From an uncultured SAR86 cluster bacterium (GTDB lineage: Bacteria > Pseudomonadota > Gammaproteobacteria > Magnimaribacterales > AG-339-G14), in contig CACNYO010000008.1 of the NCBI GenBank assembly GCA_902624765.1, positions 1 through 41,279 of the forward strand: 41,279 nucleotides of DNA. The letters run 5' to 3'. The stretch's first letter is position 1, and every line of letters begins with the position of its first letter. The notes beneath the pieces were generated by a model. It searched no databases, was not told the DNA's origin, and saw only the letters and a program-made list of their open reading frames with translations. Made by a program: the position numbers and the translations under genes. This document shows, piece after piece, positions 3,189-10,486 of the stretch.

Positions 3189-4634
3189 TCAAACTAGGGT
3201 AGTTTTACCCATTAGCTCTTTATCTATTTCTCTTGCCGCAGCTCTACCTTCATTTATTGCCCAGACAACTAGAGATTGACCTCTTCTGCAATCGCCAGCA
3301 GCAAAAACTTTTGGGTGAGAAGTTTTGTGGATATTATGATCAGCCTTGAAATTTGATCTTTCATCAAGATCAATATCAATTTCTTTGTTGATATAATTTT
3401 CTGGACCAAGAAAACCCATCGCAAGAAGTATAAGATCTGCTTTCCAAGTTTTTTCTGTGCCCTTTATTTCTTGGAAGGCTGAGTCAACCATTACTGTTTT
3501 GATACCAGTGAGCTTGCCATTTTTATCTCTTATGAATTCTTTTCCAGAAATAGAATATTCCCTAGGATCTTTTCCTAAAATTTCAATTGATTCTTCATGT
3601 CCATAATCAACTTTGTGTATTCTAGGGAAAAGTGGCCAAGGATTATTATCTGCTCTATCTTTTGGCAACTCAGGCATTATTTCAAAATTAAGAAGACTTT
3701 TGCATTTGTGTCTTAATGAGGTGCCAAGACAATCGTTTCCGGTATCACCTCCACCAATGACGATGACGTCTTTATCCTTAGCGGAAATAAATTTTTTATT
3801 CTTAAGCTTGCTGTCTAGAAGGCTCTTTGTATTTTTACCCAGAAATTCCATAGCGAAGTGAACACCATCTCCTTCTCTGCCAGGGATCGGAAGATCTCTG
3901 GGTTTTGTTGCTCCAGTGGTTAGAAGGACAGAATCATTATCATTGATAAGGTCTTCAAGAGAGAGAGAATTTGGAGCGCCGATATCAGTATTTGTATGGA
4001 AAACTATTCCTTCCTTTTCCATAATTTCAATTCTCATATCCAATATTGATTTTTCAAGTTTCATGTTAGGAATTCCATACATCATTAGTCCACCAATTCG
4101 ATCGGATCTTTCATAAACATCAACATTATGCCCGACGCTGTTTAATTGTTGTGCAGCTGAAAGGCCAGCAGGACCGGATCCAACTATAGCTATTTTTCTG
4201 TTAGTTCTGACCTCAGGAACTCTTGGCTTCAACCATCCAGATTTTATTCCTTTATCAGCGATGGCAAATTCTAGATTTTTGATTGCCACAGGGGTTTCGG
4301 TTATACCTAAAACACAAGCTCCCTCACATACTGCAGGACAAACTCTTCCAGTAACTTCGGGAAAATTATTTGTTTTGAAAAGTCTGTCGAATGCATCTTC
4401 CCATTGTTCGTTGTAAACCAAATCGTTCCACTCAGGGATTAAATTATAAACAGGACAGCCTTCACCAGATTGACAAAAAGGAACTCCACAATTCATGCAC
4501 CTTGCTGCTTGAGTATTCAAGAGCTTTTCATCATGATCTGTGTATATTTCTTTAAAGTCTAATACACGAGACTTTGCTGGCCTATACGGCTCAACCTCTC
4601 TAGAAAATTCTTTAAAGCCGGTTACTTTCCCCAT
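3189..4634 (-). CDS. gltD: Glutamate synthase (NADPH) small subunit
   Basis: This 481-residue protein is the beta subunit of NADPH-GOGAT. It takes electrons from NADPH through FAD and passes them to the large subunit. The N-terminal cysteines for 4Fe-4S clusters are visible (C46, C49, C54, C60, then C99, C103, C107). An FAD-binding GSGPAG lies at 152-157 and the NADPH-binding GGGDTG at 294-299. The C-terminal AAGDCRRGQSLVVWAI segment closes the FAD site. It lies directly downstream of gltB with one base between the stop and this start, so the two subunits are co-translated. Any control by the glutamine riboswitch ahead of gltB would reach it through that coupling. Confidence 0.95.
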   Translation of the reverse strand: MGKVTGFKEFSREVEPYRPAKSRVLDFKEIYTDHDEKLLNTQAARCMNCGVPFCQSGEGCPVYNLIPEWNDLVYNEQWEDAFDRLFKTNNFPEVTGRVCPAVCEGACVLGITETPVAIKNLEFAIADKGIKSGWLKPRVPEVRTNRKIAIVGSGPAGLSAAQQLNSVGHNVDVYERSDRIGGLMMYGIPNMKLEKSILDMRIEIMEKEGIVFHTNTDIGAPNSLSLEDLINDNDSVLLTTGATKPRDLPIPGREGDGVHFAMEFLGKNTKSLLDSKLKNKKFISAKDKDVIVIGGGDTGNDCLGTSLRHKCKSLLNFEIMPELPKDRADNNPWPLFPRIHKVDYGHEESIEILGKDPREYSISGKEFIRDKNGKLTGIKTVMVDSAFQEIKGTEKTWKADLILLAMGFLGPENYINKEIDIDLDERSNFKADHNIHKTSHPKVFAAGDCRRGQSLVVWAINEGRAAAREIDKELMGKTTLV

Positions 4635-4635
4635 T

Positions 4636-7600
4636 TCAACTCACTTTTAATTTCTTTTCCTTCATTTCTATCATTACCCTTTTATAATCAGTTGGCATTA
4701 CTTTGATAAAGCTATCTAATGCACTATTCCAACCATTAAGAATTTTAGTTGCTACTGCTGAATCAGTATATTTCTTATGATTTTTAATTAATTGCTTAAG
4801 CTCTTTCAAATCTTCTTCATCTTCTAAATTTTCAAGCTCAAAGGTGCTGGCGTTACATTTTTTGTAGAATAGTTTTCTTGGGTCATATACATAAGCAACT
4901 CCTCCACTCATCCCGGCACCAAAATTTCTACCTGTTTCTCCGAGAATTACAGCTACTCCTCCAGTCATATATTCGCAGCCATGATCTCCAATGCCCTCAA
5001 CTACAACCTTTGCTCCACTATTTCTTACACAAAATCTTTCTGCTGCAATTCCTCTAAAATATGCTTCGCCTCCAGTGGCTCCGTATAAGGCGACATTTCC
5101 AAGAATAATATTCTCTTCAGCTAGAAAACTGGATTTTTTATCAGGGTAGATTATGATTTTTCCACCTGAGAGACCCTTTCCAACATAGTCATTGGCATCT
5201 CCTTCCAGTTCTAAAGTCATTCCTTTGCAACTCCATGCCCCAAGACTTTGTCCAGCAGATCCTTTTAATTTCAAGTGAACAGAATCCTCTGGTAAACCAT
5301 TATTTTCCCAAACTTTCGATATTTCGTTAGATAGGATCGTTCCAAAAACCCTATCTGTATTTCCAATTTCTTGTTCTATTTTTATCTTTTTTCTATTGAG
5401 TATGTTTGGTTTGATTTTTTTCAGAAGTTTAAGATCCAAAGATTCTTCGAGATTATGATTTTGATCTTGAGTCTTGTATACATCAGTATTTTTAAATATC
5501 TTTTCAGCAGGAGTTAAAAGATTTGATAAATCAATTCCATCTTTTTTCCAATGGTTGATAGCAGTATCCAACTCAAGCAAATCAACTCTGCCAATCATTT
5601 CATTCAGGGTCTTGATGCCTAACTTAGCCATTATCATCCTCAATTCTTTTGCAACCATAAATAGGTAATTTACGACATTCTCAGGTTTGCCTTTGAACTT
5701 CTCTCTAAGATCCTTATCTTGTGTTGCTATTCCAACAGGACAGGTATTTAGGTGGCACTTTCTCATCATGATGCAGCCCAAGGTTACTAAAGGAGCAGTT
5801 GAGAAGCCAAACTCTTCAGCTCCCAAAATTGCAGCTATTGCAACATCTCTTCCCGTTTTTAATTGACCATCTGTTTGCAGGACTACTCTTGATCTTAGAT
5901 TATTCATTACTAGAGTCTGATGTGTTTCGGCAATACCCAGCTCCCAAGGAAGTCCTGCATGCTTGATGGAAGTTAATGGAGAAGCTCCTGTTCCCCCATC
6001 GTGACCAGCTATAACTAAATGGTCAGTTTTAGCTTTAACGACTCCAGCTGCAATTGTGCCAACTCCAATTTCAGAGACCAATTTCACACTGATTCTAGCT
6101 TTTCTATTTGCATTCTTAAGATCATGTATAAGTTGAGCTATATCTTCAATTGAATAAATATCGTGATGCGGGGGAGGGCTAATCAATCCTACTCCTGGAG
6201 TAGAATGCCTGATTCTTGCAATATATTGATCCACTTTCTTACCAGGTAACTCACCTCCTTCTCCAGGTTTTGCACCTTGAGCTATTTTTATTTGTAGCTC
6301 ATCAGAATTAGTAAGGTACCACATCGTCACCCCGAATCTTCCAGAGGCAACTTGTTTTATTGCAGATCTCTTAGACCTTCCATCTTTTAGAGGTTTAAAC
6401 CTAACTGGATCCTCTCCTCCTTCACCAGTATTGGATTTGCCTCCAAGCTCATTCATAGCCAAAGCAAGTGACTCATGAGCTTCAGTTGAAATTGATCCCA
6501 AAGACATCGCCCCTGTAGCGAATCTTTTTACTATTTCTTTTTCTGACTCAACCTGATCGATAGGTATACCTTTTTTTGGATACTTGAACTTCATCAAACC
6601 TCTGAGAGTACTATTTCTTGTAGTTTGTTCATTGGCATGATTGGAAAATTCCCAATATTTAGTCTCATCATTAGCCTGAGAAGCCAATTGCAATGATGAA
6701 ATGGATTTAGGATCCCACATGTGAGAATCACCTCCATTACGCCAATGGAAATCTCCGGGATTTGGAAGGACTGAAACTTTATTTTGATCGTATTCTGGGA
6801 AACCTATAGAGTGCCTTCTTTCAACTTCCTCTGCCAATACATCAAAATTAACTCCTTGTACCCTACTGGTAGTTCCAGGGAAACAAAGTTTTATTATTTC
6901 TTCTGCCAATCCAACAGCTTCGAATATTTGAGCACCTTTGTAAGATTGAAGAGTAGATATACCCATCTTAGCCATAACCTTTAACATACCTTTTGCAACG
7001 CCCTTTTTGTAAGCATTTACAAGATCAGAAGAACTTTTCAGATTTTCATCTTGCAGTATGCCATCGTCTACAGATTTCTCTAATACATCAAATGCCAAGT
7101 AGGGATTGATTGCATCTGCGCCATAGCCTATCAGAAGGCAATGGTGATGAACTTCCCGTGCTTCACCTGATTCAACTATCAATCCAAGTTGAGTTCTTTT
7201 CTCTTTCTTAACTAGATAATGATGAATACATGAGCAAGCAAGTAATGAACTAATTGCAACCTTCTCTTTTGACAACTCACGATCAGATAACAGCACAAAT
7301 GAATAGCCTTGCTTTATTGCATCCTCTGAATCTCTGCAAATTCTCTTCAAAGCTTTCTTCAAGCCTATTGATCCGCTTCCTCTCTCGTAGGTAATATCAA
7401 TAGTTTTGGTTTTCCATCCAAACGTTCTTAAATTTTTTATACTTTCGAGCTCTTGATTTGAAAGAATTGGATGTTTTAATCTTAATCTATGAGCATTTTT
7501 TTCTTGGGATTCTAGTAAATTACTTTCAGGACCAATTAAGCATTCAAGCGACATAATCACTTCTTCCCTAATTGAATCAATTGGTGGGTTGGTAATTTGT

Positions 7601-9195
7601 GCAAAGAGTTGCTTGAAGTAGTCGTATATCATCCTAGGCTTATCAGATAAACAGGCCAAGGCAGCGTCATTTCCCATTGAGCCGAGAGGATCCCTTAGCT
7701 CTGTTACAAGCGGCAGAAGCATGAACTCTAGGGTTTCTGTTGTATAACCAAAGGACTGCATTCGTGAGATCAGGTCATCCTTAGAAGATTTAGTTTTATA
7801 TTTTTTAAGATCTTGCAGGTCTACAATTTGGTTATTGATCCAATCACGGTAAGGATATTTATTTGAAATATTTTTTTTGATTTCCTCATCAGGAATCATT
7901 CTTCCTTTTTCAAAATCAATTAGAAACATTTTTCCTGGTTGCAGTCTTCCTTTGGAGAGAACCTTAGATTGATCAACTGGAAGGACTCCAACCTCTGATG
8001 CCATGATGACTTTGTCATCATCTGTAACATAGAATCTGCTTGGTCTGAGACCATTTCTATCTAAGACGGCTCCAACATAGTTACCGTCAGTAAATACAAT
8101 CGAAGCAGGTCCATCCCAGGGCTCCATGAATGAAGACGAGTATTCATAAAAAGCCTTTTTTGCTGAACTCATTTCATTATCGTTTTGCCATGCTTCAGGA
8201 ATCATCATCATTGCTGCTTCTGTAAGTTCTCTTCCAGACATAATTAAAAGTTCCAAAACATTATCGAAAGATCCAGAGTCTGAGCAGTCTGGTTCAGCAA
8301 TAGGAAACAACTTTGTAATTTTTGAACCAAAGTATTCACTTTTTGCTAGACCTTGTCTGGAATACATTTGATTCATATTTCCCTTAAGTGTATTTATTTC
8401 ACCGTTGTGGCACATATATCTGTTTGGCTGAGCTCTGTCCCAAGAAGGAAATGTATTGGTACTGAATCTTGAATGAACCATTGCAAGATGAGTTTCAAAC
8501 TTTTTATGTTCTAAATCTGGATAAAAAGGAAAAAGTTGAGCAGGAGTCAACATACCTTTGTAAGCAATAAGTCGCGAAGACAAAGTACAAGCATAAAACA
8601 TAAAAGATTGTTTTAAGTTCTCCCTATATCTCAAGCGCTTAGTGAAAATTTTTCTAATCAAATAAAGCTTTCTCTCAAAGGCATCTTGATCAATTCTTGA
8701 TGATTTTTGGATAAAAATTTGTTGAATTTCAGGTTGACAGTCCAAGGCAGCTGGACCTACGTTTGCTTTTTTCGGGTTTACCGGTACTTTCCTCCATCCT
8801 AAAAACTCTTGGCCCTCTGATTTTATTGTTTCTTCGACAACTTTTTTACAATACGATCTTTCCTTTCTGTCTTGGGGAAGGAAAATATTACCGGTAGCGT
8901 AGCTCCCAAAAGAAGGAAGATTTATTTTGATTTTTTTTGCTTGATCTTGGAAAAAAGAGTCTGGCAAAGCCATAAGAATCCCAGCTCCATCTCCAGTATT
9001 TTCCTCAAATCCACATCCGCCTCTATGATCCATTCTAGAGTTAATTAAATAGGCATCATCCATAATTTCCCTAGAGGGGATACCTTTAATATTCGCGACT
9101 AAGCCAACGCCGCAAGAGTCTTTCTCGCTGCTTGGATCATATAGTCCAATTTTTTTTGGACGTTCCAATAATTTATTTTTCTTATCTTCTACCAT
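4636..9195 (-). CDS. gltB: Glutamate synthase (NADPH) large subunit
   Basis: This is the 1519-residue alpha subunit of GOGAT, which converts glutamine plus 2-oxoglutarate into two glutamates. The N-terminal glutaminase domain should mature by cleavage before Cys28 (KDSCGVG), the Ntn nucleophile, removing a 27-residue propeptide. The central and FMN-binding synthase domains follow (GEGGEDPVRF, ARISVKLVSE, AGHDGGTGASP). A 3Fe-4S motif is at C1141, C1147 and C1152 (CIMMRKCHLNTC). The C-terminal GXGXG beta-helix domain (for example GGVAVILGETGRNFGAGMSGG) completes the protein. The length is normal. The leader carries an apparent L-glutamine riboswitch and a Shine-Dalgarno-masking hairpin, described separately, so expression probably responds to glutamine. 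Confidence 0.96.
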   Translation of the reverse strand: MVEDKKNKLLERPKKIGLYDPSSEKDSCGVGLVANIKGIPSREIMDDAYLINSRMDHRGGCGFEENTGDGAGILMALPDSFFQDQAKKIKINLPSFGSYATGNIFLPQDRKERSYCKKVVEETIKSEGQEFLGWRKVPVNPKKANVGPAALDCQPEIQQIFIQKSSRIDQDAFERKLYLIRKIFTKRLRYRENLKQSFMFYACTLSSRLIAYKGMLTPAQLFPFYPDLEHKKFETHLAMVHSRFSTNTFPSWDRAQPNRYMCHNGEINTLKGNMNQMYSRQGLAKSEYFGSKITKLFPIAEPDCSDSGSFDNVLELLIMSGRELTEAAMMMIPEAWQNDNEMSSAKKAFYEYSSSFMEPWDGPASIVFTDGNYVGAVLDRNGLRPSRFYVTDDDKVIMASEVGVLPVDQSKVLSKGRLQPGKMFLIDFEKGRMIPDEEIKKNISNKYPYRDWINNQIVDLQDLKKYKTKSSKDDLISRMQSFGYTTETLEFMLLPLVTELRDPLGSMGNDAALACLSDKPRMIYDYFKQLFAQITNPPIDSIREEVIMSLECLIGPESNLLESQEKNAHRLRLKHPILSNQELESIKNLRTFGWKTKTIDITYERGSGSIGLKKALKRICRDSEDAIKQGYSFVLLSDRELSKEKVAISSLLACSCIHHYLVKKEKRTQLGLIVESGEAREVHHHCLLIGYGADAINPYLAFDVLEKSVDDGILQDENLKSSSDLVNAYKKGVAKGMLKVMAKMGISTLQSYKGAQIFEAVGLAEEIIKLCFPGTTSRVQGVNFDVLAEEVERRHSIGFPEYDQNKVSVLPNPGDFHWRNGGDSHMWDPKSISSLQLASQANDETKYWEFSNHANEQTTRNSTLRGLMKFKYPKKGIPIDQVESEKEIVKRFATGAMSLGSISTEAHESLALAMNELGGKSNTGEGGEDPVRFKPLKDGRSKRSAIKQVASGRFGVTMWYLTNSDELQIKIAQGAKPGEGGELPGKKVDQYIARIRHSTPGVGLISPPPHHDIYSIEDIAQLIHDLKNANRKARISVKLVSEIGVGTIAAGVVKAKTDHLVIAGHDGGTGASPLTSIKHAGLPWELGIAETHQTLVMNNLRSRVVLQTDGQLKTGRDVAIAAILGAEEFGFSTAPLVTLGCIMMRKCHLNTCPVGIATQDKDLREKFKGKPENVVNYLFMVAKELRMIMAKLGIKTLNEMIGRVDLLELDTAINHWKKDGIDLSNLLTPAEKIFKNTDVYKTQDQNHNLEESLDLKLLKKIKPNILNRKKIKIEQEIGNTDRVFGTILSNEISKVWENNGLPEDSVHLKLKGSAGQSLGAWSCKGMTLELEGDANDYVGKGLSGGKIIIYPDKKSSFLAEENIILGNVALYGATGGEAYFRGIAAERFCVRNSGAKVVVEGIGDHGCEYMTGGVAVILGETGRNFGAGMSGGVAYVYDPRKLFYKKCNASTFELENLEDEEDLKELKQLIKNHKKYTDSAVATKILNGWNSALDSFIKVMPTDYKRVMIEMKEKKLKVS

Positions 9196-9206
9196 CGATA
9201 ATATCT

Positions 9207-9228
9207 CATCCTTCCTACTAGAAAGATG
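9207..9228 (-). promoter_or_regulatory. Hairpin masking the gltB Shine-Dalgarno sequence (riboswitch expression platform)
   Basis: On the minus strand CATCTTTC (9228-9221) pairs with GAAGGATG (9214-9207), an 8 bp stem including one G-U pair, with a 6-base loop. The 3' arm contains most of AGGAAGGA (9216-9209), the only good ribosome-binding sequence before the gltB ATG, which it precedes by about 12 bases. The hairpin starts on the base right after P1 of the aptamer, so aptamer folding and hairpin folding could compete. The role as a translational switch is inference. Confidence 0.6.
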
Positions 9229-9285
9229 CGTTCCTTCGGTTTGATTTTTTACCTACTTCCGTCCTTTCACAAAGGATGAACGATT
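9226..9285 (-). promoter_or_regulatory. glnA-class L-glutamine riboswitch aptamer in the gltB leader
   Basis: Reading the minus strand, the leader folds as a three-way junction with the conserved sequences I know from the glnA glutamine aptamer. P1 pairs CGTTC (9282-9278) with GAACG (9233-9229). P2 is a perfect 6 bp stem TCCTTT/AAAGGA (9276-9262) with a GTG loop. It is followed by the conserved CGGAAGTAGG, and a short P3 pairs GGT with ACC around an A-rich loop. The closing strand reads CCGAAGGAACGCA. The conserved blocks and spacing match the family and it precedes a glutamine-using enzyme. Ligand specificity is inferred from family resemblance. Confidence 0.88.
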
Positions 9286-9335
9286 GATCTTTAGCCCAAG
9301 ATCACAAGGAAGAATTGCTATTTCTTATTAGCTTA

Positions 9336-9365
9336 TTTATACCAAAAAATCATAAAAAAGACCAA
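9336..9365 (-). promoter_or_regulatory. Possible sigma70 promoter for gltBD
   Basis: On the minus strand TTGGTC (9365-9360) and TATAAA (9341-9336) are separated by 18 bases, a loose match to sigma70 boxes. Transcription would begin near 9329, giving a leader of about 135 bases that contains the entire riboswitch. In DNA this AT-rich such boxes can occur by chance. Confidence 0.3.
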
Positions 9366-9380
9366 TTTTTATTCTATGGC

Positions 9381-9400
9381 ATAAAAAATATATTTTTTAT
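9381..9400. repeat. 20-base AT-only perfect palindrome at the aroB stop codon
   Basis: The 20 bases 9381-9400 are a perfect palindrome made only of A and T, overlapping the aroB stop codon. It could fold as a weak hairpin at the end of the aroB message, but it has no G-C pairs. Its use as a terminator is uncertain. Confidence 0.35.
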
Positions 9401-10486
9401 ATTTTTAAGCTATTTAGGATTTTTTCTTCCGGAATATTTTCAACAATTTCAGCTTTTCCGATGCCATCTAAAACAATGAACCTTAGGTTGCTGTTTTTAC
9501 TCTTTTTATCTAACTCCATGGCTTTTAAAATTTTTTGCGGTTCACAATCAGAAGGTAATTCTGTTGGGAGTTTGTATTTTTTATTTATTTTCCTAACTCG
9601 ATCATATTCCTTGATTGTCAATTTATTTAGCAAAAGAGATAATTTTGCTGCACATAACATACCAACTCCAACGGCTTCTCCATGATTTAATCCTTTAAAT
9701 GATTGCACGCTCTCTATGGCATGAGCAAAAGTGTGCCCAAAGTTTAGATGAGCTCTAACTGATTTCTCTTCTTCGTCCTGTTCTACAATTTTTGCTTTTA
9801 TTTTTGAAGATATCTTGATGAGGTTTACCAATTCAATTGAATTTTTTCCAGTTCTAAAGTCTCCCTGAAACTTTTCTAATCTTAATAAAAGTTTTTTATC
9901 GTCAATAAGAGCATGCTTAATTATTTCTGAATATCCAGCAGTTATATGTCTTTTGCTTAATGATTTAAGATAATAAGTATCTACCATTACAGCCAAAGGT
10001 TGCTTAAAAGCCCCGATCATATTTTTAAATTTTTTGCTATTCACTCCTGTTTTACCTCCTATGGAAGCATCTACTTGTGCTAGAAGAGAAGTCGGGATAT
10101 GCATTACATCGATACCTCGAAGATAAACGGAAGCGATAAAGCCAGAGATGTCAGTGGTAATTCCGCCACCAAAAGATACGATTAAAGAGTCTCTTGAAAA
10201 TTTAGAGTCGATTAATTTTTCTAATATTCTTTCAGCGGTTTCTAAAGATTTATTTTTTTCGTTAGCCACGAACTTAAAGGACTCAAATTTACTTGGTTTC
10301 GATTTTTTTATGAAAGTTTGTACCTTTTTTTAAAGATGAGATTGGAAGTTTTGAGTCAAAGATTAGTAAAATTTCTTTTGCATCAGATAGCTTCTTGAGA
10401 GAAAAATTAGTAATGAAATTCTCACCAAAATAAATGTTGTAACTTGAACTGGCTGCTTTTACTTTTAATTGATTAATTTTTTTCAT
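9397..10486 (-). CDS. aroB: 3-Dehydroquinate synthase, split by a +1 frameshift
   Basis: AroB converts DAHP to 3-dehydroquinate in the shikimate pathway. The gene is in two frames. A 65-codon N-terminal piece starts at ATG 10486 (YNIYFGENF, ILLIFDSKL). The C-terminal piece has the NAD and zinc sites: GGGITTDISGF, PTSLLAQVDASIGGKTGVN, GYSEIIKHA and HLNFGHTFAHAIE. Together they span about 363 codons, the normal AroB length. The C-terminal frame is open only after a TAA at the first of two A7 runs (plus-strand T runs 10325-10331 and 10303-10309), and the N-terminal frame ends shortly after the second. Loss of one A in either run would restore a single reading frame. Sequencing error, a real mutation or slippage are all possible. 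The start overlaps the aroK end by 14 bases. Confidence 0.85.

Follow-up and report, generated by a model that had tools for sequence, protein, structure and literature searches.

The leader of the glutamate synthase gene gltB in a marine SAR86 genome carries a full-length type 1 (glnA class) glutamine riboswitch aptamer, and it is very probable that this aptamer works as a glutamine riboswitch acting on gltBD, in one direction or the other. We scanned the whole window (the 41,279-nt stretch of DNA analyzed here, which is contig C8 of a 0.97-Mb genome that is 72% complete) against 4227 Rfam families with cmscan. The sole match above the gathering score was RF01739 (Glutamine) at 9284-9225 on the minus strand (63.2 bits, E 8.1e-12, against a curated cut-off of 35 bits), and it spans model positions 1-53 of 53. 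The preliminary description had assigned this leader to the glnA class of L-glutamine aptamers and had proposed a covariance-model search as a check. The strong RF01739 match bears out that assignment, and the named blocks (P1 CGTTC/GAACG, a perfect P2 and the conserved strings CGGAAGTAGG and CCGAAGGAACGCA) are all present in the sequence, although the interval given at the time, 9226-9285, was off by one base. Among 14 control genomes Synechococcus elongatus alone matched RF01739, and in a sample of the class four of 369 genomes did so, three of them from the window's order and the fourth an outside genome, G486. Because matches are this scarce, the match in the gltB leader stands above chance. 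The element has the P1-P2-P3 three-way junction with the conserved CGGAAGUA and GAAGGAACGCA, and the gene whose 5' leader it occupies, gltB, serves nitrogen metabolism and starts 29 nt further on. Sequence comparison thus confirms positions 9284-9225 as a full-length glnA (type 1) glutamine aptamer. The features of the region are as follows.

3189-4634, minus strand: gltD, glutamate synthase small subunit, 481 aa, directly after gltB (Pfam and NCBIfam TIGR01317, 693 bits)
4636-9195, minus strand: gltB, glutamate synthase large subunit, 1519 aa (Pfam and NCBIfam PRK11750, 1728 bits)
9207-9228, minus strand: predicted hairpin covering the Shine-Dalgarno (SD)-like stretch, CAUCUUUCU (9228-9220)/GGAAGGAUG (9215-9207), right after P1 (ViennaRNA fold with the aptamer imposed)
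9210-9215, minus strand: SD-like GGAAGG, a putative ribosome site at a long spacing of 14 nt before the ATG (sequence)
9225-9284, minus strand: type 1 glutamine riboswitch aptamer (whole-model RF01739 match; covarying P2 and P3 among 101 distinct cores)
9282-9278 with 9233-9229, minus strand: aptamer P1, CGTTC/GAACG (sequence)
9276-9271 with 9267-9262, minus strand: aptamer P2, UCCUUU/AAAGGA, perfect, 6 bp (sequence)
9261-9254, minus strand: aptamer J2/3, CGGAAGUA (sequence)
9253-9251 with 9240-9238, minus strand: aptamer P3 (sequence)
9237-9234, minus strand: aptamer J3/1, GAAG (sequence)
9286-9303, minus strand: small hairpin GAUCUU/AAGAUC directly 5' of the aptamer (leader folds and sequences)
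9308-9314, minus strand: upstream UUCUUCC, an alternative anti-SD able to base-pair with the SD-like stretch (unconstrained full-leader fold)
9336-9365, minus strand: promoter-like TTGGTC-18 nt-TATAAA, seen in 7/7 leaders of the genus and weak, since a consensus scan did not report it

The NCBIfam matches listed above uphold the earlier identification of the genes as gltBD. Pfam matches identify aroB and aroK upstream of the leader, likewise on the minus strand. In a collection of named genomes the two closest GltB relatives (74% and 78% identity over the best segment) both come from SAR86 cluster bacteria, a cluster that NCBI taxonomy places in the Gammaproteobacteria, in agreement with the proposal that the host is a streamlined marine gammaproteobacterium.

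Conservation of the element was followed among relatives. RF01739 scored above its cut-off in 7 of the 40 genomes of the window's family, all seven in the window's genus and each ahead of gltB. The genus comprises nine genomes, of which G008 gave no gltB match and G012 a gltB match that lacks the 5' part, so that the aptamer precedes gltB in 7/7 genomes in which the 5' end of the gene is present. Covariation was assessed on 101 distinct canonical cores, 99 from the order and two from the outside genome G486. In P2, 398 of 404 cells are paired (mean 81% and maximum 85% over 1000 shuffles), and in P3 301 of 303 (shuffled mean 77%, maximum 83%). Both helices covary among the relatives with pairing above all 1000 shuffles, which are a soft control because the 101 sequences are related. 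P1 reads CGUUC/GAACG in 101/101 cores; conservation of P1 and of the core is partly by construction, since the collecting pattern fixed parts of both, and a helix that never varies is uninformative for covariation. The preliminary description had proposed to test P1-P3 for covariation in related leaders; in the related aptamers pairing is kept, with P2 and P3 covarying.

Across the order, RF01739 matched in 95 of 203 genomes (81 above the cut-off). These come from 13 of 22 genera; a single genome has as many as seven matches, and many of the matches stand in tandem. In a phylum sample one of 398 genomes matched, namely the window's own. G486, a small-genome gammaproteobacterium outside the order, carries two separate aptamers, one ahead of a gltB-like ORF (PF00310, 556 bits) and the other ahead of a gltD-like ORF (PF14691, PF07992); behind each of them (L126, L128) a hairpin, CACCAAACU/AGUUUGGUG, begins immediately after P1. 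We read the downstream genes at 118 loci, some of them overlapping, from 88 genomes (87 of the 95 matching order genomes plus G486), labelling them by short motifs and by family scans of representatives. Counted as genomes per kind, these genes encode GlnII-type glutamine synthetase (24), Gcw_chp/TorF porin (16), DUF4278-like (13) and DUF4177-like (12) proteins, circularly permuted ATP-grasp (9), gltB (8, seven of the window's genus plus G486), TonB receptor (8), GlnA-type glutamine synthetase (2) and gltD (1), with other small proteins in 11, 4, 2 and 1 genomes and unlabelled loci in four. The small-protein labels are soft, because only one of four scanned DUF4278 representatives scored above the Pfam cut-off, the other three falling just below it, as did the DUF4177 representative. 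Among the 87 order genomes read, an aptamer before gltB is confined to the window's genus.

Two further observations were made at these loci. At L147, L149, L171, L176, L130 and loci like them, glutamine aptamers in tandem precede genes for small, basic proteins (about 43-54 aa) that have no annotation, and by analogy we would guess that these proteins act like cyanobacterial glutamine synthetase inactivating factors. At L097 a hairpin and then a U run (GGCUACUAAAC...GUUUAGCC-CUUUUU) lie in the Gcw_chp/TorF porin leader downstream of the aptamer, which suggests transcriptional control in that branch.

The gltB-leader element shares with glnA RNA, type 1 (RF01739), the P1-P2-P3 junction, J2/3, J3/1 and the place before a nitrogen-assimilation gene, and differs from it in a P3 loop 6 nt longer than the consensus and in its SAR86 host. 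The available text of a 2018 review (PMC6316151) restricts glutamine riboswitches to cyanobacteria and traces their link with glutamine synthetase, PII and transporter genes to environmental sequences from strains not in culture. Glutamate synthase is already listed among the glnA-RNA target genes in the accessible part of Weinberg et al. 2010 (PMC2864571), and thus the element belongs to a known class and is less novel than was earlier implied. A literature search gave no published account of glutamine riboswitches in SAR86 among the matches listed. Type 2 (Downstream-peptide or Glutamine-II, RF01704) senses glutamine with a related core, according to excerpts of PMC2864571 and PMC6316151, and stands before small DUF4278-type genes, as does a second aptamer of the window's genome described below. 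With a cut-off of 33 bits, RF01704 had no match at gathering score in the window and none above cut-off in 13 SAR86 genomes with DUF4278 leaders (0/13, best 17.4 bits), and we rejected membership in Glutamine-II for both. The gltD motif of Negativicutes is also a glutamate synthase leader RNA, with a possible hairpin that occludes the ribosome-binding site; judged by its published description, as far as the available text of PMC8632094 gives it, it is a different RNA from other bacteria.

The sister genera have another kind of gltB leader. Among 30 gltB leaders of the family the aptamer core is found in the seven of the window's genus and is absent from the 23 of genera g2, g3 and g4. All of these 23 carry GCAU-[A/U]UCAC-AUGC and then AAAA-GUGN, in one or two copies, and pairing of the UCAC loop with GUGA would make these elements pseudoknot-like. 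Full four-base loop pairing is present in 23 of 25 loci (the 23 leaders and two more), L211 and L212 having one mismatch each; this pairing barely varies, so its covariation support is slight. By eye, a further hairpin lies 3' of these elements, mostly with a GUCC loop and a GGGC or GGAC tail, and the gltB leaders of the two closest GltB relatives resemble those of g4. Searched for as a pattern, the elements turned up in 26 of the 203 genomes of the order; g2-g4 account for 25 of these and the nine genomes of the window's genus for none, and a reversed control pattern matched none of the 203. For two of these leaders, an Rfam search with E-values up to 10 turned up no plausible family, and a search of the available papers found no account of a 2-oxoglutarate riboswitch class, a candidate for them. 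The elements may serve as a DNA site. Loci at which they replace the aptamer on gltB are L199-L201, L207 and L210-L228.

How the aptamer might act on gltB was approached by folding. There is no terminator-like site in 9100-9450, which makes translational control the better reading for gltB and disfavors transcription termination; control is thus probably exerted at translation. With the aptamer imposed, ViennaRNA predicts the SD-covering hairpin CAUCUUUCU/GGAAGGAUG in 7/7 leaders of the genus. In the glutamine riboswitch, C60 pairs with G23 of J2/3 once glutamine is bound, as stated in the available portion of PMC11477058. Judged by its position, C9228, the first base of the SD-covering hairpin, would correspond to C60, and because the hairpin begins at this base, ligand binding and the hairpin would compete for it. 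We propose that L-glutamine would bind, lock J2/3 into the base of P1 and take C9228 into a pair. The bound state would then compete with the hairpin at 9228-9207 that covers the SD-like stretch and also with an anti-P1 pairing, GAAGGA/UCUUUC, which breaks P1 and was found in unconstrained full-leader folds, so that GOGAT translation would follow the level of its own substrate. The upstream UUCUUCC is weak as an anti-SD, since 100 of 2000 shuffled versions of the upstream segment also formed a helix as long as its pairing with the SD. Pairing of the 5' strand of P2 (UCAUCCUU) with AAGGAUGA at the SD was rejected as a candidate; it is available in the window but is shortened where P2 changes (L002: UCAUCCCU).

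SD accessibility was modelled by folding the seven leaders, in a short and in the full form. In a short leader with C60 removed, to resemble the ligand-bound state, accessibility was 0.43-0.71 in three leaders and 0.04-0.17 in four. In the full leader it was 0.00-0.05 in 7/7 without ligand, and the SD stayed mostly closed (0.00-0.19) in the ligand-like state, with an SD opening cost of 4.2-8.4 kcal/mol across both states. Folding energies of the seven leaders, taken three ways, did not decide between on and off. The sequence 3' of the aptamer was also compared among downstream genes. Tails starting CAUC make up 6/7 distinct gltB tails and most non-DUF4278 small-protein tails, 1/19 GlnII glutamine synthetase tails and 0/9 DUF4278 tails. 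This layout would group gltB with the small-protein genes and apart from the DUF4278 genes. The cyanobacterial counterparts of DUF4278 leaders are known activators; since DUF4278 leaders have another tail, this precedent does not transfer to gltB by layout.

Glutamine could act on the same switch in the opposite sense, a sub-case that we consider possible and the less probable of the two directions. Glutamine would here steady P1, freeing CAUCUUUC from the anti-P1 pairing GAAGGA/UCUUUC; CAUCUUUC would cover the SD, and GOGAT would fall when glutamine is plentiful. Translational off switches usually have such a layout, in which P1 frees a strand to cover the SD, and the appearance of the anti-P1 hairpin in unconstrained full-leader folds, together with the identity of the string GAAGGAACGCAUCUUUC in 7/7 leaders of the genus, is consistent with it. 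However, the modelled SD is already closed without ligand (at most 0.05 in 7/7), which leaves little room for repression. Moreover, both known glutamine riboswitch types are reported as activators in the available text of PMC6316151, and for this reason we lean to "on with glutamine", which we prefer over "off" and to which we give about an even chance, with a smaller share for neither direction.

An aptamer fold that is kept on gltB but does not switch the gene by itself, whether it affects mRNA stability, binds a protein or is a relic, is unlikely. Such a role would fit with the 23/23 sister-genus leaders that lack the aptamer and with full-leader folds that show no clear change in SD access, but the invariant core, the covarying helices and the recurrence ahead of nitrogen genes across the order point to ligand sensing. 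A chance resemblance or an assembly artefact is very improbable: the E-value is 8e-12, and the same element stands at the same place in seven independent genomes.

The window's genome has a second glutamine aptamer outside the window, at G000:C5:14086-14218 (L305:1501-1633, plus strand), which went unreported when the genome was searched with RF01739. It lies shortly after an ammonium transporter gene (PF00909, 312 bits) and ahead of the ORF of a DUF4278-like micro-protein, and its P3 is enlarged by a conserved inserted domain of some 75 nt. A covariance model of the P3-inserted form, built from 19 such sequences, gave full-length matches of at least 105 bits in 42 of 203 order genomes from three families, the 19 being included by construction. 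The form is present in 33 of the 40 genomes of the window's family and in 3 of 274 genomes of a class sample, all three from the order and one of them weak. Over 33 distinct sequences the modelled structure has 95.1% of cells paired, compared with 83.7% in shuffled alignments and 33-55% when slid by 1-3 columns; 14 pairs are changed on both sides in these 33 sequences, in an alignment fitted to the model. P3 of the inserted form, which lies outside the model, switches as a whole from AGAUA/UAUCU to AAAAC/GUUUU, and GAAAACC, AGCAAGUACC and GGGAACGAGACCGA are nearly invariant.

The insert pattern also occurs in 41 marine viral contigs from IMG/VR (L320-L360). Both halves of the glutamine aptamer flank it in 40 of these, the remaining contig being cut at its end, and an ORF with YRG repeats lies behind it in 37, the other four contigs ending too soon. 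Phage genes adjoin the insert in the three viral contigs examined (major head protein, ribonucleotide reductase and DNA polymerase), and two query sequences gave no blastn match among the named phages of a phage collection. Glutamine riboswitches have been reported in marine phages in the accessible parts of PMC9004378 and PMC9964418. Tentatively, and with more doubt than belief, we suggest a composite riboswitch in which the multi-hairpin domain at the tip of P3 would respond to a further signal, giving a single RNA gated by two inputs; this RNA and its micro-protein in uncultured marine phages would steer host nitrogen metabolism, and the gltB leaders of the sister genera would have swapped the glutamine aptamer for a tandem pseudoknot sensor. 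A second aptamer is the boldest reading of the P3 insert, and a domain for tertiary contact or stability would be the sober one.

SAR86 ranks among the most abundant groups of bacteria in surface ocean waters, according to the available text of PMC11582366. Our analysis places many glutamine aptamers in this group, before glutamine synthetases, glutamate synthase, porins, TonB receptors and micro-proteins, and nitrogen control in a streamlined heterotroph thereby becomes testable. The change of gltB leader type among sister genera and the P3-inserted form shared with phages are leads for new RNA sensors.
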